From assembly GCF_008084905.1 (NCBI RefSeq), contig NZ_VSFC01000052.1, positions 62,001 to 126,000 of the forward strand: 64,000 nucleotides of DNA. The letters are read 5' to 3'. The notes beneath the pieces were generated by a model that saw only the letters and a program-made list of their open reading frames with translations, made no database searches and had not been told where the DNA came from. Within the stretch, counting starts at the first letter, position 1; each line of letters begins with the position of its first letter. The stretch comes from Xanthomarina maritima. GTDB taxonomy: Bacteria > Bacteroidota > Bacteroidia > Flavobacteriales > Flavobacteriaceae. Made by a program: the position numbers and the translations under genes. Below are positions 9,119 through 41,175 of this stretch, one piece after another.

Positions 9119-9204
9119 GGCGTGCCTTTTGCAAGCAAAAGTCAGGCTTTACGTTAAATTTTTTTAGATAAATCTAAAAAAGATATCACTTCAATCCTTC
9201 ACGC
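9119..9204. repeat. Structured dispersed repeat of flavobacterial type
   Basis: Outer arms GCGTG (9120-9124) and CACGC (9200-9204) enclose two hairpins: CTTTTG-CAAG-CAAAAG (9126-9141) and TTTTTTAGA-TAAA-TCTAAAAAA (about 9151-9176). Between them is GTCAGGCTTTACG and after them a GATATCACTTCAATCC segment. From memory this layout (GGCGTxCC, hairpin, GTCGGGCTTTxCG, hairpin, ATCC-TCACGC) recurs between genes in many Flavobacteriia. Only one copy is in this window, so the repeat status rests on recall. Confidence 0.5.
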
Positions 9205-9220
9205 AAATTTTTACTAAAAA

Positions 9221-18109: not shown

Positions 18110-18155
18110 AAAAATTAATTAGTGAGGTTCGCGACCTCGATTATTAATAAGTGTG

Positions 18156-25634: not shown

Positions 25635-25708
25635 GGTCTGGTAGTTCAGTTGGTTAGAATGTCGCCCTGTCACGGCGAAGGTCGCGGGTTCGAGTCCCGT
25701 CCAGACCG
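25635..25708 (+). tRNA. tRNA-Asp (GTC)
   Basis: Complete cloverleaf of 74 nt: acceptor GGTCTGG/CCAGACC with discriminator G, D arm with GTTCAGTTGGTTAGA, anticodon stem TCGCC/GGCGA with loop CT-GTC-AC, and T arm GCGGGTTCGAGTCCCGT. No encoded CCA. Its 3' end is the insertion site of the integrative element. Confidence 0.97.
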
Positions 25709-25889
25709 CTAAAATTGCTAAAGCTCCAAGAAGTTGGAGCTTTTTTTAGCAATTAAAATTAGTTGTGTTGTTTTGACAGATGTAGTAGTCTGTCAATGGT
25801 AGTAGAGCTGATTAATTCAGTTTTATCCAATGGAAAGCTTTCCTTTTTTCTTTATAGAAGATTGGGATGCTTTTTTGTTTTAGAGAGGT
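25694..25889 (+). repeat. Left end: attL core plus 180-bp flanking homology
   Basis: The 17-bp core is followed by a region matching the right-hand copy imperfectly to the end of TTTTTTGTTTTAG. It holds the tRNA terminator, a hairpin TTGACAGA-TGTAGTAG-TCTGTCAA (25773-25796) and the palindrome GGAAAGCTTTCC (25832-25843). It is 16 nt longer than the right copy because of a divergent insert before the palindrome. Being next to the intact tRNA, the part after the core is element DNA. Confidence 0.85.
25720..25747 (+). terminator. Terminator of tRNA-Asp (element copy)
   Basis: AAGCTCCAA-GAAG-TTGGAGCTT followed by a T run. The same hairpin exists in the right-hand copy, so the element restores both the tRNA 3' end and its terminator. 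Confidence 0.85.
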
Positions 25890-25923
25890 ACTAATCTTCA
25901 AAAACTTTCAATTCTTCAAAATA

Positions 25924-25965
25924 AGGTGTCCTTTTAGGTGTCCCACTTTTTTTCTTCAGGTGTCC
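25924..25965 (+). repeat. Three AGGTGTCC repeats upstream of the integrase
   Basis: AGGTGTCC at 25924-25931, 25936-25943 and 25958-25965, spaced 12 and 22 bp, that is roughly one and two helical turns. They end 22 bp before the integrase ATG. Position and phasing suit arm-type binding sites of the integrase, or an operator for int. Confidence 0.55.
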
Positions 25966-25986
25966 CAAAATTAAAACCACAAAAAA

Positions 25987-27204
25987 ATGAAAATCAGAAC
26001 ATTAAGTATTTTGTACTATATACAGAAGTCTAAGATAAATAAACAAGGTAAGTGCCCCATTCAAGCAAGATTGACATATCTTAAAAGAAGAAAAGAGTTT
26101 TCTACAGGATTATTTACTGAACCTGATAACTGGAATAGACTACAGCAGATTATAGAGTCACTAGATAAAGAACATAATTATAAGAACACACAATTAAGCC
26201 TGATTTCAGCAAAACTGAATCAGGCTTTTTTAATGCTTCAAGTTAATCAAGTAAGTTTTGATGTAGAGGATATTTATAGACAGTATAAAGGAGTAAAGGT
26301 TAAAAAAGATGTAGGAGTCTATGAAGTTTATAATATGTTTTTAAAATACCTTGAAAGGTTAATAGGTAAGGAGTTGAATGAAAATACTCATAAGAAATAT
26401 ATAGCCTATGGTAAACATTTAAAGAGTTTTATTAAATGGAAATACAAATCTAAGGATATAAAGCTCTCTACTGTTAAAGGCAGTTTTGTGATTCATTATG
26501 AATATTACCTTAAAACAGAAAAGAACTTTGCTCAAATTACTTTAAATAAGGTAATTCAGAGGTTTAGGAGGTCAATAAAGTATGCAATTGCAGAAGATTA
26601 TTTAGACAAAGACCCTTTTATGCTTTACAAAGCAAAACGAGTCAAAAAAGACATTATATATCTTTCTCAAGATGAACTTCTAAATTTGGAAAAGCAAACT
26701 TTTGAAATTCAAAGAGTGCAACAAATTAAAGATATGTTTGTGTTCTGTTGTTATACAGGATTAGCTTTCAAAGAAATGATAGGGTTAAAGAAATCTGATG
26801 TTGTAGTTGAATTTGATGATAATCTTTGGATTGTTGTGCATAGGATTAAAACTTCAAGAAGTTATAAAGTTCCATTAATGCCACAAGCAAAAATGATAAT
26901 GGAAAAATATAATCAAGATGAATCAGATTATGTGTTTCCAAGGATTTCTAATCCAAAGTTCAATGCCTATCTGAAGGAAATAGCAGATGTTACAGGTATC
27001 AAAATCAATCTGACTCATCATATTGCCAGAAAAACTTTTGCAACAACTGTATTGCTTTATAATGATGTGCCTATGGAAATAGTGTCAAAATTATTAGGTC
27101 ACAGTAAGATGCAAACTACTCAAGAACATTATGGTGAAGTTGTGCAAAAAAAGATAAGTGAGGAAATGAGTAAGTTAAGTAATAAATTGAAGAAAAAAGG
27201 ATGA
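25987..27204 (+). CDS. int: Tyrosine recombinase (integrase)
   Basis: A 405-aa site-specific recombinase. Residues 1-90 form the arm-DNA-binding domain, about 100-210 the SAM-like core-binding domain (phage_int_SAM_5 type), and 220-400 the catalytic domain. Catalytic residues seen: H-x-x-R in THHIARKTFATT (near 345), H in LLGHSKMQTTQ and the nucleophile Y in EHYGEV (near 381). The first catalytic Arg of the family is replaced in CYTGLAFKEM; several Bacteroidota integrases, including the CTnDOT one, also lack it. It should catalyse integration and excision at tRNA-Asp. Confidence 0.93.
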   Translation: MKIRTLSILYYIQKSKINKQGKCPIQARLTYLKRRKEFSTGLFTEPDNWNRLQQIIESLDKEHNYKNTQLSLISAKLNQAFLMLQVNQVSFDVEDIYRQYKGVKVKKDVGVYEVYNMFLKYLERLIGKELNENTHKKYIAYGKHLKSFIKWKYKSKDIKLSTVKGSFVIHYEYYLKTEKNFAQITLNKVIQRFRRSIKYAIAEDYLDKDPFMLYKAKRVKKDIIYLSQDELLNLEKQTFEIQRVQQIKDMFVFCCYTGLAFKEMIGLKKSDVVVEFDDNLWIVVHRIKTSRSYKVPLMPQAKMIMEKYNQDESDYVFPRISNPKFNAYLKEIADVTGIKINLTHHIARKTFATTVLLYNDVPMEIVSKLLGHSKMQTTQEHYGEVVQKKISEEMSKLSNKLKKKG

Positions 27205-31723: not shown

Positions 31724-31729
31724 GTGATG

Positions 31730-31760
31730 CCCAATCTCTATTAATTTAGAGGTTGGGTTT
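31730..31760 (+). terminator. Terminator of the AAA/DUF3871 unit (repeat copy 1)
   Basis: Stem CCCAATCTCT / AGAGGTTGGG (one T-G wobble) with an 8-nt loop and TTT tail, 6 bp after the DUF3871 stop. The first 26 nt recur exactly beyond the YwqK gene. Confidence 0.85.
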
Positions 31761-31883: not shown

Positions 31884-32699
31884 ATGACAGAGGAATATAT
31901 AAATTATAGCGATATAAAAATAATAGATAAAATTGCCTATCTGAAACGTGATATGAGTTTAGTGACTGGGGAAGTTGTAAATCGGTTTTCAAATGGTTAT
32001 ATACAATTTATACATAATTTTAAGGATGGTAAAGAAGTGGTAGTTAAGAGACAAGACATTGTGATTTTTTCAGGTATAGCTTCTCTAAAAGAGAAAGCGG
32101 TTTTAGTAACAGGAAAAATTAGAGGTTGGTGGAAAAATGGTCAATTAGCTGAAGAGGGAACATATTTTCATGGTAGAAGTGTTGGTGTTTGGAGACATTG
32201 GGACCGATTTGGTAAATTATGTTCTGAAGAAATAATCATTGATTCCGAACATATAATTAGAATAGATGGTATTACTTACCTTAAACACGATATGAGTTTA
32301 GTGACCGGTAAAGTTCGAGAGTGGCGTGGAGATGAAGGTATATGGTATGGAGCAGGAGAGCCATTATTCGAGGAAATTACTTATAAAGAGGGGAAAGAAA
32401 ATGGTCCTAATAAACGTTGGGATGATAATGACCAATTAAGATTTGAAGGAATTTGGAAGGATGGAAAAAAGTATGGTGTTCATAAAAAGTATAATAAAGA
32501 TGGTCAGTTATTCGAGGAAATTCCATATAGAGATGGTAATATAGATGGAATTCTGAAAATGTACAATGTAGATGGTAAGATAGTCTCAGAAGCAAATTAC
32601 AAAGAAGGTAAACAAGATGGAGTTCATACACTTTGGAACGAAGAAGGTGAAATATTGTTTGAAATCTTCTATAAAGATGGTGAAGTTATAAGTTTATAA
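31884..32699 (+). CDS. YwqK/MORN-repeat protein (cargo gene)
   Basis: A 271-aa protein built of MORN-like repeats of the YwqK type: units such as YFHGRSVGVWRHWDRFGKL, YKEGKENGPNKRWDDNDQL, WKDGKKYGVHKKYNKDGQL, YRDGNIDGILKMYNVDGK and YKEGKQDGVHTLWNEEGE. The N-terminal third carries a duplicated segment (YLKRDMSLVTGEV and YLKHDMSLVTGKV). YwqK of Bacillus is the antitoxin of a polymorphic toxin, but no toxin gene is next to this one. No signal peptide. It stands alone between two copies of the same terminator sequence, which suggests it was inserted as a cassette. Confidence 0.8.
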   Translation: MTEEYINYSDIKIIDKIAYLKRDMSLVTGEVVNRFSNGYIQFIHNFKDGKEVVVKRQDIVIFSGIASLKEKAVLVTGKIRGWWKNGQLAEEGTYFHGRSVGVWRHWDRFGKLCSEEIIIDSEHIIRIDGITYLKHDMSLVTGKVREWRGDEGIWYGAGEPLFEEITYKEGKENGPNKRWDDNDQLRFEGIWKDGKKYGVHKKYNKDGQLFEEIPYRDGNIDGILKMYNVDGKIVSEANYKEGKQDGVHTLWNEEGEILFEIFYKDGEVISL

Positions 32700-32746: not shown

Positions 32747-32775
32747 CCCAATCTCTATTAATTTAGAGGTTGTGT
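32747..32775 (+). terminator. Terminator of the YwqK gene (repeat copy 2)
   Basis: Repeats exactly 26 nt of the terminator found after the DUF3871 gene, 48 bp after the YwqK stop. The base of the stem has one mismatch in this copy, and the tail is TTATTTTAA. Confidence 0.75.
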
Positions 32776-32794
32776 TATTTTAAGTTTATACCAA

Positions 32795-32879
32795 TAAAAA
32801 AGCCCAGAGCAAGTCTGGGCAATTTTACTTTTTTTAAGTGCAGCACTAATGCAAATGACTAGCTGGGCACTATAAATGT
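32795..32879 (-). ncRNA. Putative small RNA linked to the Abi gene
   Basis: Leftward transcript of about 80 nt predicted between a -7 box at 32884-32891 and a strong terminator GCCCAGA-GCAAG-TCTGGGC (32802-32820) followed by T6. It contains no ORF. The 5' half can pair AGTGC with GCACT around CCAGCTAG...TTAGTGCT, and GCCCAG occurs both in the 5' half and in the terminator, so alternative or pseudoknot pairings are possible. It lies directly beyond the Abi_2-family gene on the same strand. I recall ncRNAs being associated with AbiF-type genes, but have not compared sequences. Confidence 0.5.
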
Positions 32880-32883
32880 TATA

Positions 32884-32913
32884 CAAAGATACGAAATACT
32901 TTCATATTTGAAA
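32884..32913 (-). promoter_or_regulatory. Promoter for the putative small RNA, inside a hairpin
   Basis: Exact -7 TATCTTTG (32884-32891, minus) with a TTTC -33-like box (32910-32913) at 18-19 bp. The -33 side overlaps a 10-bp inverted repeat AAATACTTTC-ATATTT-GAAAGTATTT (32894-32919) that reaches into the Abi stop codon; this may be an operator. Confidence 0.5.
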
Positions 32914-32918
32914 GTATT

Positions 32919-33791
32919 TTAACAAAAATCATATCCTATTTTATTTTCAATAATATTTTTAATCTCTTGATTGTGTTTGTGTTGAGTGTATAATTTCTCT
33001 ATACCTTTTTCTAAATCTACTTTTCTGTTAGTTGAAATTTTTCCTAAAAAATGGATAATAACTTGAATAGCAGTATTCAATGAATGTCTATTGTTATTAT
33101 TTATTTTAATAAGTGGAGTTGGTTTAATAGCTAATGGTGAGTTAGCATCATAAAGCAGTCCACTATGAGCACAAATGTTTCTTATAAAAATAATGGTTCT
33201 GAAATAGTTGATAAAAACATCAACTTTTTTGATTCCATAATGCTGAATGATTTTCTTTTTTAAAGTGTCATCTTTTAGATTGTAAAAAATACTATAGATA
33301 CTACCAAAAGTTAAGAATTCTAAAGTTTTCCAAGCTGGAGCATAAATGTCGTTTATGTATTTGTTGTGATGCTCTTTTATAGGTTTATTGTTTTCAATAA
33401 ATTTATAGTCATAAAATTTAGGGAAATCTTGAATAAATTTAGGTTTCATTACTTTAGGGTCAGAGAACCAAGTAGGGCTATTTTTATAGTTATTTGATAC
33501 CTGATAAATAATTTGAGTCCTGATGTTAATTTCAATTCTATTTAATGCCCTCATTAGTAGATACCTTAAATCAACATCTAAATAGTATAAGTTTATAACA
33601 GTTGAAAAATTTGTGTCTTTTTTGAAGTTGTGTTGGTTATCTATTTCAAAAGGATTCCAATAAAATCCAAGCCTATAATAGCCAATGTCAAGCAAGTGTT
33701 CTTTAGCTTTTTGTTCCCCACAGTCTAATACTAATCCTCTATCTGTTAGTAATTTTATTTGTTTATCAACTGTTGTTGCTATTCTTCCCAT
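32919..33791 (-). CDS. Abi_2-family abortive infection protein (AbiD/AbiF-like HEPN RNase)
   Basis: A 290-aa protein of the Abi_2 family. The N-terminal pattern DKQIKLLTDRGLVL...LLDIGYYRLGFYWNPF and the LRYLLMRALNRIEINIRTQI helix are typical. The HEPN catalytic motif R-x4-H is RNICAH (R204, H209), followed by SGLLYD. Known relatives (AbiD, AbiF) halt growth of phage-infected cells, probably by cutting RNA. The start is 2 bp beyond the Res stop, so it is translated from the restriction operon as its last gene. A putative small RNA is encoded immediately downstream. Confidence 0.9.
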   Translation of the reverse strand: MGRIATTVDKQIKLLTDRGLVLDCGEQKAKEHLLDIGYYRLGFYWNPFEIDNQHNFKKDTNFSTVINLYYLDVDLRYLLMRALNRIEINIRTQIIYQVSNNYKNSPTWFSDPKVMKPKFIQDFPKFYDYKFIENNKPIKEHHNKYINDIYAPAWKTLEFLTFGSIYSIFYNLKDDTLKKKIIQHYGIKKVDVFINYFRTIIFIRNICAHSGLLYDANSPLAIKPTPLIKINNNNRHSLNTAIQVIIHFLGKISTNRKVDLEKGIEKLYTQHKHNQEIKNIIENKIGYDFC

Positions 33792-33793
33792 TG

Positions 33794-36532
33794 TTAGTAT
33801 GTTTTTTCAAATTTATTTACCAAATTTTGAAAACTAGAAGTCTTGTCTACTTGGTCATGGGGAATTAATAAATAACGCCAAGTTTTACCTTCATTTTTAC
33901 TAGTAAATTCATTAGCATATTGACAGTATTTTAAAGCTGCTTTCATTTTTAACTGTACTTCTTCAGTTTCTATTTCTTTAGCTTTTTTAGGTTCACACAT
34001 AAAGATTGAATCTTCAGTTTCTACTATAAAGTCAGGTTCATATTTGTTAGAGTTTTTACCCCAATAAATTCTAAATTGATTTGTAGCAGGTCTTAACCAT
34101 TTTATTACAGAAGCATCATTTTCTATTACAAATGAAAAATCTTTTTCTGTGTTAGAATCAAATTTATACTCTGGATGACAAGATTTTTCAAAACCTCTAT
34201 AGACATATTTTGTTACAAGACTTAAAGGTGTGATTACATCAGTATAGTGTTTGTAACCATTCTCTTTCGGTACTGTAAAGTTCCAATCTTCTATTTTTAC
34301 AAAAGGTAAAATAGTTGGTGGTATATAATCAGGGTTACTCATTTTAAAATGAGTTTTTAACTGGTCATAAATCTTACCTGCAATCACTTTTCTGTACTGT
34401 CTAATCAATACAGGAAGCTGTTTTTTATCTGATAAGTTTTCTGATAGTTTTTCTAAAGCTTGAGTAACTAATTTATGTAATAAATCTGCACTCTCATCAT
34501 AATCAATTTCAGGGAAGTTAATAAGTTCGGCTATAACTTGGTTTACAGGTGTTTCATTTACAAAAGCACCTTGTTTTACTCCAAGAGAGTCTATTTTAGA
34601 TTGGTCTTTTAAATCCATTCTTAAAATCTCTTCTTGCATGATGTTTAAATCAAAACCTTTGGTTGTGTCTAAATCAAAATCTTCAAACCAAGTTTCTACT
34701 TCTTCTAGAACTAAATCCATTCTTGGGATTTCTATAATCTGACTTTTGAAATTAGCAATTACGGAATCATATTGAGCCTCTGCTTCTGCAACAATTTGAG
34801 GCATGAAAATATTTTGCTGTCCTCTAGATAAAGTGTCTTTTATCTTTTGAAGTGCCTTTTGTTTTACTTCAGGTTTGGATAAATCATTTACACTATTTAC
34901 ACCTTCATTAGATGAAAAGGTAGGGATAGCATTAACAATAGCTTTTTTAGCTTCTAAAGCGTGTGTTAATTCTAGTTTCTTTTCAGGATTAACAACAGCA
35001 TTTATTTTAGCTTGTTCTCTTCTTATTTCTGCATTAATCTTAGTTTCAGAAGTAACAATTGTAGATTCTGTTTTTAAGTCTTCTTCGTCTAACTCTATAA
35101 ATGTTAGTTTGTTTAATACAGAATCTGGATTTTTAGCTTCTTGAATAACTCTGTTAAAATTATCATGAGCTAAAACAGTGAGTTTATCTACTTTATCAAC
35201 CCCTGTTCTTTTACCATTATAGGGTAATCTTAAACCTCTACCAATAGTTTGCTCAATTAATACAGAAGCATTGGCTGCTCTTAAAGGAACAATAGTATAT
35301 AGGTTGGTTACATCCCAACCTTCTTTTAGCATGTTTACATGGATTACAATTTCAATCTCATTATCTGGACTTTCTAAGGATAAAAATTGCCTTTCAATTT
35401 CTTCAACTTTTTTAGTTGATGAGTCTATCTGTAAAACTCTACCTTCATATTTACCATTATAAAAAGCATTAGAACTTATGTAATCATAAACTTCTGAAGC
35501 ATGATTAATATCTTTACAAACAACAAGTATAAATGGTTTTACAAGTTGAACATTATTATTTCTAGCATATAACTCTAATTCATTTTTAGTGTCTTCATGT
35601 ACTGAAATAGCATCTTCTAATTTAAACTGTTCCACCTCTTTAGGTGTTAAGTTTTTCTTGTCAAAATCTTTACGAGTTGCTATTGCAGGGGCTTTTACAT
35701 ATTTCCCATCTTCTAAAGCTTGGGCTAAATTATACTCATACACAACATTTTTAAATGCTTTTCCTTTTTCGTCTATTGGTGTGGCTGTAAGTTCTAAACC
35801 TAGAACAGGCTTTAGTTCATTAATTGCTTTTTTAGAGGCATCTGCATGATACCTATGAGCTTCATCCATTAAAATAACTAAATCATCTAGTCCTGCAAGA
35901 TAGTTCCAATAGGACTGACCTAAATACTCTGATAACCTTTTCATTTTTGGAGGTTTTCCTTTATCATCTTTTCCTTTTCCTAATTTGATGTCTGAATTAA
36001 ATTTTGAAATATTAAAAATGTTAATTCTAACCTCTTGGTCTCCAAAAAGATTACCTTTTTCAGCATAATTATCACCATTGATAATTACTGGTCTGTTTGT
36101 AACAAACTCACTAATACCTTTAAACACATATTTTTTGTAGTTTGGATTTCCAAAGTCTTCAATTAGTTTGTCGTAGATAGTTAGGTTAGGGGCTAAAATG
36201 AAAAAATTACGAATCCCTTTTTTAAGATATAAATAGGTAATAAAAGCACCCATTAATCTGGTTTTACCAACACCTGTAGCAATAGAAAAACAAAGGGAAA
36301 CAAAATCCCTTTCAAAGTCTTTACAACTAGGATAATGTTTTTTTATTTTTTTTAATTCTGCTTTTAAATCAACTTCTTTTTTTAGCTCCAATTCTTCTGT
36401 TAAATAAGCCACCAATTGTAAAGAATCTCTTAAAGGGTCTCTTAATGATAATCTATTGTTTATTCTGTTAACAATAGTATCTACACTTGGGTTGGCTTGT
36501 TCTATAATATAATCTCTAGTACTATTCTCCAT
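33794..36532 (-). CDS. Type III restriction enzyme Res-like helicase-endonuclease
   Basis: A 912-aa SF2 helicase with nuclease end. Walker A is ATGVGKT (85-91), DEAH box LMDEAHRYHAD (near 224), motif III LTATP, motif VI IGRGLRLPYNGKR. The C-terminus has a PD-(D/E)xK site: YEPDFIVETEDSIFMCEPKKA (PDF...E-x-K read in two parts, near 835-855). Type III Res proteins translocate or slide along DNA after ATP hydrolysis and cut when two complexes meet. It overlaps mod by 11 bp, the usual mod-res order in the direction of transcription. Confidence 0.92.
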   Translation of the reverse strand: MENSTRDYIIEQANPSVDTIVNRINNRLSLRDPLRDSLQLVAYLTEELELKKEVDLKAELKKIKKHYPSCKDFERDFVSLCFSIATGVGKTRLMGAFITYLYLKKGIRNFFILAPNLTIYDKLIEDFGNPNYKKYVFKGISEFVTNRPVIINGDNYAEKGNLFGDQEVRINIFNISKFNSDIKLGKGKDDKGKPPKMKRLSEYLGQSYWNYLAGLDDLVILMDEAHRYHADASKKAINELKPVLGLELTATPIDEKGKAFKNVVYEYNLAQALEDGKYVKAPAIATRKDFDKKNLTPKEVEQFKLEDAISVHEDTKNELELYARNNNVQLVKPFILVVCKDINHASEVYDYISSNAFYNGKYEGRVLQIDSSTKKVEEIERQFLSLESPDNEIEIVIHVNMLKEGWDVTNLYTIVPLRAANASVLIEQTIGRGLRLPYNGKRTGVDKVDKLTVLAHDNFNRVIQEAKNPDSVLNKLTFIELDEEDLKTESTIVTSETKINAEIRREQAKINAVVNPEKKLELTHALEAKKAIVNAIPTFSSNEGVNSVNDLSKPEVKQKALQKIKDTLSRGQQNIFMPQIVAEAEAQYDSVIANFKSQIIEIPRMDLVLEEVETWFEDFDLDTTKGFDLNIMQEEILRMDLKDQSKIDSLGVKQGAFVNETPVNQVIAELINFPEIDYDESADLLHKLVTQALEKLSENLSDKKQLPVLIRQYRKVIAGKIYDQLKTHFKMSNPDYIPPTILPFVKIEDWNFTVPKENGYKHYTDVITPLSLVTKYVYRGFEKSCHPEYKFDSNTEKDFSFVIENDASVIKWLRPATNQFRIYWGKNSNKYEPDFIVETEDSIFMCEPKKAKEIETEEVQLKMKAALKYCQYANEFTSKNEGKTWRYLLIPHDQVDKTSSFQNLVNKFEKTY

Positions 36533-38282
36533 CTGCTAATTCTTCATCGGTTAATACTGGTGGATTGATAATATTTAGACTATAATCATCTTTACCAAAT
36601 TCACACTTACCTAATAACATTTTAGGTATTTTTTTTAGTACAATATTTTTGAACTTATTGTGGCATTCTGGTTGGAATTTTTTAGCACAAATAAGTAAAC
36701 TTTCTCCTTCCTGTAATTGGTCTTGTAGTTGGTCTAATAACTCTACTGTTACAAATTGTGTAGTGGTAAAAATAAAGTCTTGTTCTGCACTATAACCTTG
36801 TTTCCAATAATTGTCTTTATCTGGTGCATACCTAAACCCTTCTTGTTTAGCCATTGCAGCAGCTAACATATCAGCATTATACTCTTTGCTAATTACCCAA
36901 TTGTCATATTTATCTTTATTTAATAAACTTGGTGCTAATTCATAAAACTTAAAGCCTCCACCACCTTCCCAGTTTACTGCTTTAGTTATTCCAGCGGTAT
37001 CCTTATTTTTAATAACTTTTTTAAATCTAGGGACACAGTGGGTTAGAGCATGGTCACCGAGTTCAACCCCAATAAATTTTCTGCCCATTTTCATTGCAGC
37101 AGCAGCAGTGGTTCCCGAACCTAAAAATGAATCTAAAACAAAATCTCCTTTTTGAGTTGCCAGAGATAATACCTTCTGAATAAGCGCTTCAGGTTTTTTT
37201 CCATGAGGAAATTTTACTCCTCCTTCTTTTGTTAAATTATTTAAAGGGAACCCATCCCAGTAAGTTCCTGCTTTTTCAAGTTTTACTAGAGATTTGCCTT
37301 TTTTGATACAAACATCACTTAACCATGCAATCAAATCACAATTATTACCTTTATAGTAAAGCGTGGTAAGTTTGTTCTTATTTTTACCTGATTTAGGTAT
37401 ATAATCAATAGAGAAAAAATCACCATTTCCTTCAGTAGCCTCCATAACTCTTGTTCGTATTGAACTTTGAGCATTAGTATCTCTAAAGACCTTGTCATGA
37501 TACTTTACATAACATTCTTCTTCAGTTAAGTCATCTTGTTTCATTAACTCTTTGATGGTTTTAAAGACAATATTATTATGTTTGAAAATTTTAATTATAT
37601 CTCCAGAACCGTCTTTTGTTTCACCAAAATATTCTCTTTCTTCCAAACCAGAATAAATAACTCGTGTGTATTTCCAGCTTTTTCCTTGGTCTCTCATTTC
37701 TTTGATTAAATCAAATAAATTCGTTTCATCATAAAGAGGATTGAAAGATTGGAAATGATTTTTATCTTTTGAGTATATAAGTAAGTATTCAATATTCTTT
37801 TTTAACTTTTTGTCTTCACCACCACCACTAGCACCCGATGTTTGCTTCATTTTAGCACTAACTTGATTTAAAAAATTTTCTCTACCAAATATCTCATCGA
37901 GTATCACTCTACAATAAGCAACTTCATTATCATCTAATTGAACAAACAAGGTACCATCATTAGTTAAAAGGTTTCTTAACAATCTAAATCTTTGACTCAT
38001 TAAATCAAGCCAAATAGAATGTTCTAAACCATCATCATAATGTTCAAATGCTTGTCCAGTATTATAAGGTGGGTCTATATAGATACACTTTATCTTTCCT
38101 GTATAGTCTTGCTCTAAAGCTTTTAAAGCTAGAAGATTATCTCCATGAATCAGCAGGTTTTCTGTATTAGGGTCTCCATAACTGTACTCAGGGTTTTCTA
38201 TTAAAATTCTCGGTTCTAGAGCTGGTTCTTCTCCTTTACCTATCCACGTTAACTCTAGTTTTTGTTGTTTTTTGTTTGCCAT
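36522..38282 (-). CDS. Type III Mod-like DNA methyltransferase
   Basis: A 586-aa beta-class amino-methyltransferase. Catalytic DPPY is at 70-73 (IYIDPPYNTGQAF); the SAM-binding motif comes later, DSFLGSGTTAAAAMKMG near 385, the order typical of type III Mod and N6-adenine enzymes. The stretch between (about 130-360) is the target recognition domain (KMKQTSGASGGGEDKK and onwards). It should methylate one strand of an asymmetric site and give Res its specificity. It ends inside res and follows the SNF2 gene by 4 bp. Confidence 0.92.
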   Translation of the reverse strand: MANKKQQKLELTWIGKGEEPALEPRILIENPEYSYGDPNTENLLIHGDNLLALKALEQDYTGKIKCIYIDPPYNTGQAFEHYDDGLEHSIWLDLMSQRFRLLRNLLTNDGTLFVQLDDNEVAYCRVILDEIFGRENFLNQVSAKMKQTSGASGGGEDKKLKKNIEYLLIYSKDKNHFQSFNPLYDETNLFDLIKEMRDQGKSWKYTRVIYSGLEEREYFGETKDGSGDIIKIFKHNNIVFKTIKELMKQDDLTEEECYVKYHDKVFRDTNAQSSIRTRVMEATEGNGDFFSIDYIPKSGKNKNKLTTLYYKGNNCDLIAWLSDVCIKKGKSLVKLEKAGTYWDGFPLNNLTKEGGVKFPHGKKPEALIQKVLSLATQKGDFVLDSFLGSGTTAAAAMKMGRKFIGVELGDHALTHCVPRFKKVIKNKDTAGITKAVNWEGGGGFKFYELAPSLLNKDKYDNWVISKEYNADMLAAAMAKQEGFRYAPDKDNYWKQGYSAEQDFIFTTTQFVTVELLDQLQDQLQEGESLLICAKKFQPECHNKFKNIVLKKIPKMLLGKCEFGKDDYSLNIINPPVLTDEELADGE

Positions 38283-38286
38283 AATT

Positions 38287-41175
38287 TTATATCAATTCCC
38301 ACTCAATGGTAAATAATTCTTGTTCTACTATACGTTGTGCTAAACGCTCTTCTATATTACTTAAAACATCATCTTTTTTATCATCTATTTGGTCTTGTGC
38401 TTCAAAAAGATGTTTTCTTTTTTCATTACGTTTTTTTTCTAACTCTTTAATAGCACGTTGTTCTTTTACTTTTGTTTGTAAATCTAACTTTTTTCTAGCT
38501 TCTGCTTTGCGTAATTTTATTTCTGCATCAATATCTTGTATTTCCCTTTCAAGGCTAATCTTCATATCATCAGCCCACTTATCTAGCTTATCATACTCTT
38601 GGTCAAAAAACTCTGCATTACGTTGTAAGTTATCTTCTAAAACTACTTGTTTTTGAGCTTTAAATATTTTTTTTAGTAACTGGTCTATATCATAGGAGAT
38701 AGAATTGATGTTTTTTGTTTTTGCAGGTAAGCTAAACATTTTTTGAGCTATTTCACTATCTATTTTATTATCTTGTTTATCTATAATCTGTATTAATAAA
38801 TAATCTTCTTCTTCAAAAGATAAAATGCTTAATTGGTTAACTCTTAAAGTACCTGTGCTACCTATATAATCTTCTAAAATAGCCATGTTTTTAGGGTGGT
38901 TAGAATAATCAAAAATTACTTTTTGCACCTCTAATTGTTTTGTTTTACAAGCTTCTACTATTTGTTTGGCTAGAGGGTGACCAATTCTGTATAAATTTGC
39001 ATCATTATCTAGTTCTTGTTGAGATTTCTTAATAGAATCCCCACTTTTTAAAAGTTGATATGGACCTTCATTAATTTTAAATTGGGGAAATGGATTTTTT
39101 TTAAGTCTGAAAATATCTCTTTTAAAATCAAACTCTGCATAACCTTTTAAATAGTGTTTAGTAACAGCCCATAACCAGTTTTCATATTGGTTTAAGTAGC
39201 TTTTTCCTTTCTCAAGGTTTACTTTAAGTTTTTGGTGTACTTCATCATCAAAATGTTCTAATAACTGCTCTCTAGTTTCATCAATTCTAGTATTAATACT
39301 TTCATCCATTTCTTGTTGGAGTGTATCAAAAGCATTTTTAATTTCTGAAGGTTGTCTGCATTCTTGATATATTTGAGCTATTCTTTTTTCAAAATCAACA
39401 CCAGAACTGATACTACCTAAAACTTCGTCTGAAGCACCAAAAACCCCATTAAAAAGCTGAAATTTTTGGTCTAGTAGTTCATAAACTCTTTGGTCTGCTT
39501 CATTAGATTTGTTTAAGAAATTAATAACAACAACATCATGTTTTTGCCCATACCTGTGCACTCTACCAATTCGTTGTTCTATTCTCTGTGGATTCCAAGG
39601 CATATCATAATTTACTAACAAAGAACAAAATTGCAGATTAATACCTTCAGCAGCAGCTTCTGTAGCAATTAAAATGGTAGCCGTGTTTCTAAAGTAATCG
39701 ACAATAGCTTGTCTAATATCAGCAGCTTTTGCACCACTAACTCTATCAGTACCATTATGTTCTTCAATCCAATCTTTGTATATCTGTCTTGATTTAACGT
39801 CGTTATTGGAACCATTAAATAGTACAATTTTATCATTGTAGCCATTACTAGATAAGTGGTCAAGTAAATATTTCTGTGTTCTAGTAGATTCTGTAAAGAT
39901 GATAGCTTTTTGGTTAGCTCCTAATTCTTCAAGTTTCTCAAAGCCTTTATTTAATGCAGTTAGCAATTTTTCTCCTTTAGCATTTTTTTCAATGGAAACA
40001 GCTAGCTCTCTAAATGTTGAGACATTATCTAGCTCAGCTTGTACTTCAGCTAATTCTTCATCAGTTAGTAATTCAAAAGAATTAAGTTCTTCATCTCCCC
40101 ATTCCTCTTCAAGTTCATCAATGGTTTCAAATTCAGTGCCAAGTTCAACCTTTTCATTGAGAAATTTTTGGTCAGCTAAAATAGCTTTCAACTTGTTTTC
40201 TAAAGCCTCTAAAGTACCTGAAATAGCATAAGTAGATGAAGCTAATAACTTTCTTAAAATTAAAGTCATTAACTGTCTTTGACTATTAGGTAAAGCATAT
40301 AATTTGGGTGTTTGTAAATACTCTGATACTAAATCATATAGAATCTTTTCATCTTGAAAAGGAAAGTACTCTTCAACAATTGCAATTCTATTGGTGTAGT
40401 TTATATATTCTAATACTTGCCTTCTTAAAGTTCTTATGCAAACTGGTTTTAATCTTTCCTTTAATTCTAAAAAAGAATCTTCTGTAGTTATTCTACCAAA
40501 TTGTGTTTTAAAACTTTTTAAATCTCCAAAAGCATATTCATCAATAAAGCTAACAAGTCCATATAGTTCTAAAATTGAGTTTTGTAATGGGGTAGCAGTC
40601 AGAAGGATTTTAGGTGCATGCTGAATAGCTGACTTTATTGCATTAGCTATTTTGTTTTTAGGTTTGTATACATTTCTTAATCTATGAGCTTCATCAATAA
40701 TAACTAAATCCCAATCTATCATTCTAACAAACTCCTCTTTAGACCTTATAAATTGAAAAGATGCTAAAATTATCTGTTCTTGGTTAAATGGGTTTTTTTT
40801 ACCTTGTTTTTTTAATTGGGTAAAAGATTTTGACTCTAATACAGTTGAAGGAATAAAGAACTTATCAGATAACTCTTGATTCCATTGTTTTCTTAAATTT
40901 GCTGGGCAAATAATAAGTAGCTTCCTTTTCCTTTCAGCCCATTTCTGTGAGATAATAATACCAGCTTCAATAGTCTTTCCAAGGCCAACTTCATCAGCAA
41001 GAAGAGCTCCTTTTGACAAAGGAGATTGAAAAGCAAACAATGCAGCTTCTACTTGATGTGGGTTCATATCTACTTGGGCATCTTGTAAAGATGCAGTAAA
41101 CTTACCAATATCATTAGCAGGAAGTCTTCTAGTTAATTCGTGAGCAAAGTATTTAGCTTGGTAATCTGTAATCAT
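38287..41175 (-). CDS. SNF2/RapA-family helicase of the defence operon
   Basis: A 962-aa Swi2/Snf2 ATPase: DEVGLGKT (61-68), DEAH (161-164), LLTATPLQNS, and the second lobe with ATEAAAEGINLQF and PWNPQRIEQRIGRVHRYGQ. The last 350 residues are charged and coiled-coil-rich (RKAEARKKLDLQTKVKEQ). RapA-like and DISARM DrmD-like proteins have this build; such ATPases move along duplex DNA and displace bound proteins. Placing one between a nuclease gene and a type III mod gene is not the standard type III layout. It overlaps the DUF2779 gene by 4 bp (ATGA). Confidence 0.9.
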   Translation of the reverse strand: MITDYQAKYFAHELTRRLPANDIGKFTASLQDAQVDMNPHQVEAALFAFQSPLSKGALLADEVGLGKTIEAGIIISQKWAERKRKLLIICPANLRKQWNQELSDKFFIPSTVLESKSFTQLKKQGKKNPFNQEQIILASFQFIRSKEEFVRMIDWDLVIIDEAHRLRNVYKPKNKIANAIKSAIQHAPKILLTATPLQNSILELYGLVSFIDEYAFGDLKSFKTQFGRITTEDSFLELKERLKPVCIRTLRRQVLEYINYTNRIAIVEEYFPFQDEKILYDLVSEYLQTPKLYALPNSQRQLMTLILRKLLASSTYAISGTLEALENKLKAILADQKFLNEKVELGTEFETIDELEEEWGDEELNSFELLTDEELAEVQAELDNVSTFRELAVSIEKNAKGEKLLTALNKGFEKLEELGANQKAIIFTESTRTQKYLLDHLSSNGYNDKIVLFNGSNNDVKSRQIYKDWIEEHNGTDRVSGAKAADIRQAIVDYFRNTATILIATEAAAEGINLQFCSLLVNYDMPWNPQRIEQRIGRVHRYGQKHDVVVINFLNKSNEADQRVYELLDQKFQLFNGVFGASDEVLGSISSGVDFEKRIAQIYQECRQPSEIKNAFDTLQQEMDESINTRIDETREQLLEHFDDEVHQKLKVNLEKGKSYLNQYENWLWAVTKHYLKGYAEFDFKRDIFRLKKNPFPQFKINEGPYQLLKSGDSIKKSQQELDNDANLYRIGHPLAKQIVEACKTKQLEVQKVIFDYSNHPKNMAILEDYIGSTGTLRVNQLSILSFEEEDYLLIQIIDKQDNKIDSEIAQKMFSLPAKTKNINSISYDIDQLLKKIFKAQKQVVLEDNLQRNAEFFDQEYDKLDKWADDMKISLEREIQDIDAEIKLRKAEARKKLDLQTKVKEQRAIKELEKKRNEKRKHLFEAQDQIDDKKDDVLSNIEERLAQRIVEQELFTIEWELI

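Follow-up and report, generated by a model that had tools for sequence, protein, structure and literature searches.

Immediately downstream of an abi gene of Xanthomarina maritima lies a small structured RNA, which was analyzed together with the window around it (the whole stretch of 64,000 nucleotides). Judged from its sequence, the RNA forms a separate, genuinely conserved family with a new gene order. The gene and the RNA very likely constitute a two-gene toxin-antitoxin (TA) module, in which a HEPN RNase (AbiF/AbiFr-like, type III-like) would be paired with a downstream RNA antitoxin, and, by analogy with known systems, the copies of the RNA found in phages would act as decoys.

The abi gene and its downstream RNA unit

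The Abi protein of the window contained the Abi_2 domain (Pfam accession PF07751, E-value 3.3e-41), matched AbiD in PADLOC (1.2e-46), and carried the HEPN catalytic motif R-x4-H as RNICAH (R204 to H209). The pattern R-N-x-x-x-H was also present in all 20 proteins examined from clade A, the group of close relatives described below. By Foldseek, the AlphaFold model of the protein (pLDDT 91) had a sole significant match in the PDB, the PbAbiF-ncRNA structure 8vz6 (TM 0.86, E-value 6.3e-12), which identifies an AbiF fold. R204 and H209 aligned with R210 and H215 of 8vz6, residues that are required for activity, the double mutant being inactive (PMC12373285).

Downstream of the abi stop codon (32919-32921 in plus-strand coordinates), an inverted repeat, a -7 box, a hairpin, an A-rich linker, a terminator, and a T6 run follow in this order on the minus strand. 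The features of the region are as follows:

33794..36532, minus strand, type III restriction subunit (Pfam ResIII 2.2e-22, PADLOC REase_III 4.4e-168)
32919..33791, minus strand, abi gene, Abi_2/AbiD-AbiF-type HEPN RNase of 290 aa (Pfam, PADLOC, Foldseek)
32894..32919, no strand, 11-bp inverted repeat that reaches the abi stop and overlaps the promoter, arms 32894-32904 and 32909-32919 (sequence)
32884..32891, minus strand, Bacteroidota-type -7 box TATCTTTG of the RNA's own promoter (TAnnTTTG at homologous loci)
32796..32879, minus strand, predicted RNA of about 80 nt, from about 5-8 nt past the -7 box to the T-run (sequence anatomy, folding)
32837..32871, minus strand, two-step core hairpin of about 35 nt (R1 model match, covariation)
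32802..32820, minus strand, intrinsic terminator stem GCCCAGA-5-TCTGGGC, 7 bp (folding, homologous loci)
32796-32801, minus strand, T6 run (sequence)

The core hairpin is composed of P1 (AGUGC/GCACU), J (CCA/GCU), and P2 (GCUAGU/AUUAGU), topped by a mini-stem C(A)..(U)G with an invariant bulged C. The R1 model matched the window at 32828-32874 with 68.9 bits, and only one copy of an R1-type RNA was found in the host genome. The stretch 32780-32925, which includes the terminator and the inverted repeat, folded better than 200 of 200 shuffles (z -4.6), and the RNA alone had a z of -2.5.

The restriction subunit gene ends 2 nt before abi, hence abi is probably in the same operon. A SNF2/DrmD-like helicase, a type III methyltransferase, the restriction subunit, and abi are arranged head-to-tail, a few bases apart (33794-41175, minus strand), and the helicase, type III RM, and abi genes probably form one defence operon. 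A restriction gene was likewise located directly upstream of abi at a related locus (L004). A tRNA-Asp followed by a tyrosine recombinase gene was observed at 25635-27204 of the window, and the block of type III RM, DrmD-like helicase, and Abi genes is probably part of an island inserted at this tRNA. In addition, a terminator-like repeat, cccaatctctattaatttagaggttg, occurs at 31729-31760 and 32748-32778, on either side of a MORN-repeat gene (31884-32699). The MORN gene looks like swapped-in cargo, since the Abi RNA in L004 and L013 directly abuts the sequence that precedes the insert. Rfam also identified a Flavo-1 RNA (9136-9209) and an S16 ribosomal protein leader (18114-18148), both on the minus strand and both ordinary for Flavobacteriia.

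Conservation and covariation of the RNAs

Related abi genes were gathered from the Flavobacteriaceae, its order, and its class. Clade A comprises a close group of 21 related genes with a readable 3' flank, whose proteins range in identity from 94% to about 40%. A promoter-hairpin-terminator unit was found 3' of abi on the same strand in all 21 loci, which confirms the proposal of an earlier note on this DNA that such a unit lies just past the Abi stop. The promoter box and the 7-bp terminator described there were also borne out: TAnnTTTG occurred 4-15 nt before the hairpin at 19 of 19 scored loci (by chance expected in 3.7% of 48-nt windows); all of these loci also had a terminator after the hairpin. 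The inverted repeat at the promoter is real (11 bp), but L013, the nearest relative, retains it only in part, and others lack it. Similarly, GCCCAG does occur in both the RNA body and the terminator of the window, but the pairing between them is not conserved, being absent in nine of 19 loci and reaching at least 5 bp in only six. The proposed alternative-pairing switch therefore has no support.

The compensating changes that the earlier note had suggested looking for downstream of Abi homologues were found. In the bacterial alignment (n = 17), 90.5% of the cells were paired and double-sided changes were observed at eight of 13 pairs; none of 500 shuffles was as good, and slid controls collapsed. 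Pairing stayed at 90.4% when 17 distinct viral RNAs were joined to the alignment, and the bacterial and viral alignment (n = 37) included compensatory changes at nine of 13 pairs, with 0 of 500 shuffles as good. In the consensus, a 3+3 internal loop separates P1 (AGUGY/GCACU) from P2 (4-6 bp), and the loop CAUU..G, closed by a mini-stem, precedes the invariant bulged C. The conserved parts are the loop (CAUU..GC), the bulged C, and an AAAA tail, while the stems are variable. Four loci were divergent: L021 and L041 share a separate subtype, and the model gave low scores to L045 and L046. At these four loci the RNA was recognized by eye from its position, promoter, AGUG..CACU stem, and terminator, its model score not being significant. 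The clade-A abi gene of L041 (G507) has an internal TAG, yet its promoter-RNA-terminator unit, of the L021 subtype, is intact.

Rfam scans of the window RNA at gathering and permissive thresholds returned no real match. A MicC match at 18.7 bits, for which the cut-off is 90, was rejected as chance. The earlier note had asked for a search with the Abi-associated RNA families, and the abiF family (RF03085) did not match the window RNA even at E-values up to 10, nor did it have a match above the cut-off across 32 whole genomes with related abi genes. The best-placed weak RF03085 matches (22.5 and 18.8 bits) were located just upstream of distant abi genes (G256 and G198:C4) and not at the window RNA.

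A sister clade of abi genes, clade B (about 35% identity), was found to have a different structured RNA upstream, for example CAGUACACACCACGCUACCCAUUAGAACAGCGUCCCAGGGUGUGUC. This uncatalogued and strongly covarying RNA, with the core ACGCUACCC..AGAACAGCGUCCCAG, was observed at loci L005-L012, L023, and L025-L033. In its alignment (n = 18, including 12 viral sequences), 97.7% of the cells were paired and 39 were double-change cells. The corresponding model, R2, had nine matches in 119 bacterial genomes, eight of them directly upstream of abi. In a maximum-likelihood tree of 38 Abi proteins, which has some long branches and unsure details within each clade, one branch (100/100) split the genes with a downstream RNA from those with an upstream RNA, and protein clade coincided fully with RNA type and position. 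Both the type and the position of the RNA thus track the lineage of the toxin, as would be expected of cognate partners.

Copies of the RNAs without abi genes

A scan of 397 Flavobacteriaceae genomes with R1 identified 15 matches of at least 37 bits, of which 10 were downstream of a clade-A abi gene. The other five had no adjacent abi: L053, L060, L061, and two decayed copies in the genome G023. L060 (G053) retained an intact promoter and terminator, and the RNA of L061, with a compensated P1, adjoins phage tail-completion/neck and DNA-methyltransferase genes. The solitary full-length RNA genes of L053 (G037) and L060 are either kept antitoxins or relics. No toxin gene was found that lacked the RNA, yet the RNA occurred without the toxin in bacteria and phages, an asymmetry expected of a toxin and its antitoxin.

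Among viruses, the clade-A RNA was found in 34 contigs, including 32 from a pattern scan of IMG/VR and two of the L061 type from a second scan, and these copies scored 41-68 bits against the bacterial model, equal to the abi-linked copies. The clade-B core was found in 80 viral contigs (a count of matching loci; 86 stretches were reported). The contigs are metagenomic, and several are copies of one phage group. A tblastn and profile search of 113 viral loci, covering fetched stretches of about 1-15 kb, identified no abi gene, with positive bacterial controls, and a peptide-pattern search of viral contigs found no relatives of the window Abi protein. Abi relatives in phages and plasmids had only 24-34% identity among the matches listed. 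As in a phage mimic, the putative antitoxin RNA was thus encoded without its toxin in the 34 and 80 contigs.

Only one of 31 viral copies had a -7 box of its own. Where it could be read, the upstream gene frequently encoded the major head protein (phrog_11589), and the RNA lay 9-188 nt past its stop on the same strand; other RNAs were 3' of a tail gene (L074) or of different genes, and many clade-B copies were within phage tRNA arrays. Clade-A and clade-B RNAs occurred in tandem, some 100-180 nt apart, in at least nine contigs (L072, L073, L077, L082, L084, L086, L094, L095, and L096), and weakly so in L081 and L090. The sheath protein of L074 has relatives in phages of Winogradskyella and Flavobacterium. 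For the phage group with the major-head location, no close isolate was found, so its hosts are suggested only by the RNA. Searched with blastn, the region of the viral array had no match among INPHARED phages. In the open-access literature searched, phage arrays of Abi antitoxin RNAs were not described, though a description may exist elsewhere. A third structured RNA was observed within the same intergenic region, about 55 nt after the phage RNA array and just before a gene starting MGKxGKISTIK (L093, L094, L072, L082, L130, L184, and others). It has a three-way junction, an outer stem that varies (GAGUG/CACUC, UAGAUAG/CUAUCUA), and a UUCRAU loop, with no match in Rfam. Its sequences aligned poorly, and it might be a leader of the gene that follows or a further antitoxin mimic.

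The viral distribution also bears on a different explanation, namely that the phage hairpins are regulatory or processing elements of the phages themselves and that Abi is built to sense such RNA as a trigger. It would account for the phage copies being commoner than abi genes in virus scans and for their fixed late-operon places in one phage group. We consider it unlikely, as in bacteria the RNAs usually accompany abi (10 of 15 for R1, eight of nine for R2), the phage copies are inserted at different sites (in major-head and tail operons, in tRNA arrays, and elsewhere), a single regulatory role does not predict the RNAs of two Abi clades in tandem, and related AbiF ncRNAs inhibit rather than activate. 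We instead read the phage RNAs as decoy antitoxins, by analogy a natural, multi-target form of the mimicry by pseudo-ToxI repeats, with which the phage PhiTE defeats ToxIN and by which a phage with antitoxin mimics escapes (PMC3475682). In contrast to pseudo-ToxI, the copies described here are seemingly long-established, are spread over many phages, and would target two Abi clades. An Abi-type ncRNA motif was also noted in the genome of the cyanophage S-CREM1, with no mechanism given; it differs from the present copies in being a member of RF03085, in having no array, and in that no decoy function was proposed (PMC9964418).

Relation to known systems and proposed mechanism

The window pair resembles both PbAbiF-AbiFr (8vz6) and the C. 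difficile AbiF-RCd22 in combining an Abi_2 HEPN RNase with the R-x4-H motif and a small structured ncRNA of similar size, and it shares the fold of PbAbiF at the TM noted above (0.86). RCd22 neutralizes its toxin in cis and in trans by direct binding (PMC12373285). However, the window RNA belongs to another structural family than AbiFr and RCd22 and is located downstream of the toxin with its own promoter, whereas RCd22 is upstream, co-transcribed, and contains two abiF motifs. The Rfam abiF RNA is likewise a hairpin motif of 36-37 nt linked to Abi_2 genes, but its loop and stem layout is different. Type III TA systems such as ToxIN also pair an RNA antitoxin with an RNase abortive-infection toxin, while the window pair differs in its unrelated toxin fold, single-unit antitoxin, and toxin-first order. 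The canonical type III layout, an upstream RNA in one transcript with an internal terminator, was replaced by a downstream RNA with its own promoter in 21 of 21 loci, and in place of tandem antitoxin repeats there was a single unit in one genome copy.

The analysis shows the structure of the RNA, its constant pairing with clade-A abi genes, its separate promoter, and its occurrence away from abi in many unrelated viral contigs. For the window pair and the phage RNAs, we infer transcription, binding, neutralization, trigger, and decoy function. By analogy with the PbAbiF and RCd22 precedents, the RNA would bind and neutralize the toxic RNase, a type III-like function. The core hairpin is likely the Abi-binding antitoxin domain, and its likely points of contact are the loop, the bulged C, and the AAAA tail, all of them conserved. 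AbiF toxins of C. difficile and Prevotellaceae are neutralized by direct ncRNA binding (PMC12373285, PMC12737573), and bulge nucleotides of AbiFr are reported to act as the inhibitors (PMC12737573). The Abi ribonuclease would be harmless while bound to the hairpin RNA, which would be constantly transcribed from a separate promoter just past abi. Once the RNA was lost or no longer supplied, as might happen upon shut-off of host transcription by a phage, the RNase would be freed, and it would cut RNA and stop the infected cell. Phages would keep the RNase occupied by expressing clade-A and clade-B hairpins in highly expressed late or tRNA transcripts. The earlier note's suggestion of an RNA antitoxin for the HEPN RNase thus gains strong, if inferential, support from the constant pairing, the covariation, and the likeness to the PbAbiF fold. 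Points against the TA reading are the missing RF03085 match, the gene order unlike that of the C. difficile abiF, a possible phage-internal role of the phage copies, and the divergence of the RNA at L021, L041, L045, and L046.

The earlier note had alternatively suggested a guide. AbiF has been proposed as the ancestor of Cas13 and its ncRNA as that of the crRNA (PMC12737573), and a pre-Cas13 guide or activator could steer the Abi RNase to its targets. Such a role is very improbable, since the RNA has no free variable, spacer-like segment, its loop, bulged C, and AAAA tail are conserved, and its variable stems covary internally; nor would a guide account for the RNA-only copies in phages when no toxin gene lacking the RNA was found. 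Alternatively, the RNA might act purely in cis, as the 3' end of an mRNA or as an attenuator of the abi operon. Such a role would fit its place right behind the abi stop and its terminator, but is very improbable given the promoter box in 19 of 19 loci, the orphan L060 with promoter and terminator, and the copies in unrelated phage contexts.

The TA reading adds to the AbiF systems an uncatalogued family of antitoxin RNA with a reversed gene order. Natural variants in every abi-RNA pair mean that RNA-protein recognition can be mapped, and the abi-free phage copies permit a direct test of the hairpin behind the major-head gene against abortive infection. Phages of Bacteroidota-type hosts probably carry stocks of Abi antitoxin RNAs in major-head or tRNA transcripts, some in tandem against two Abi clades, which would amount to a widespread counter-defence based on RNA, comparable to RNA anti-CRISPRs. 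If the hairpin behind the major-head gene does block abortive infection, small RNAs between late phage genes would be a searchable store of counter-defence, and RNA antitoxins could in general be recognized as structured RNAs that accompany a toxin in bacteria but stand alone in phages.
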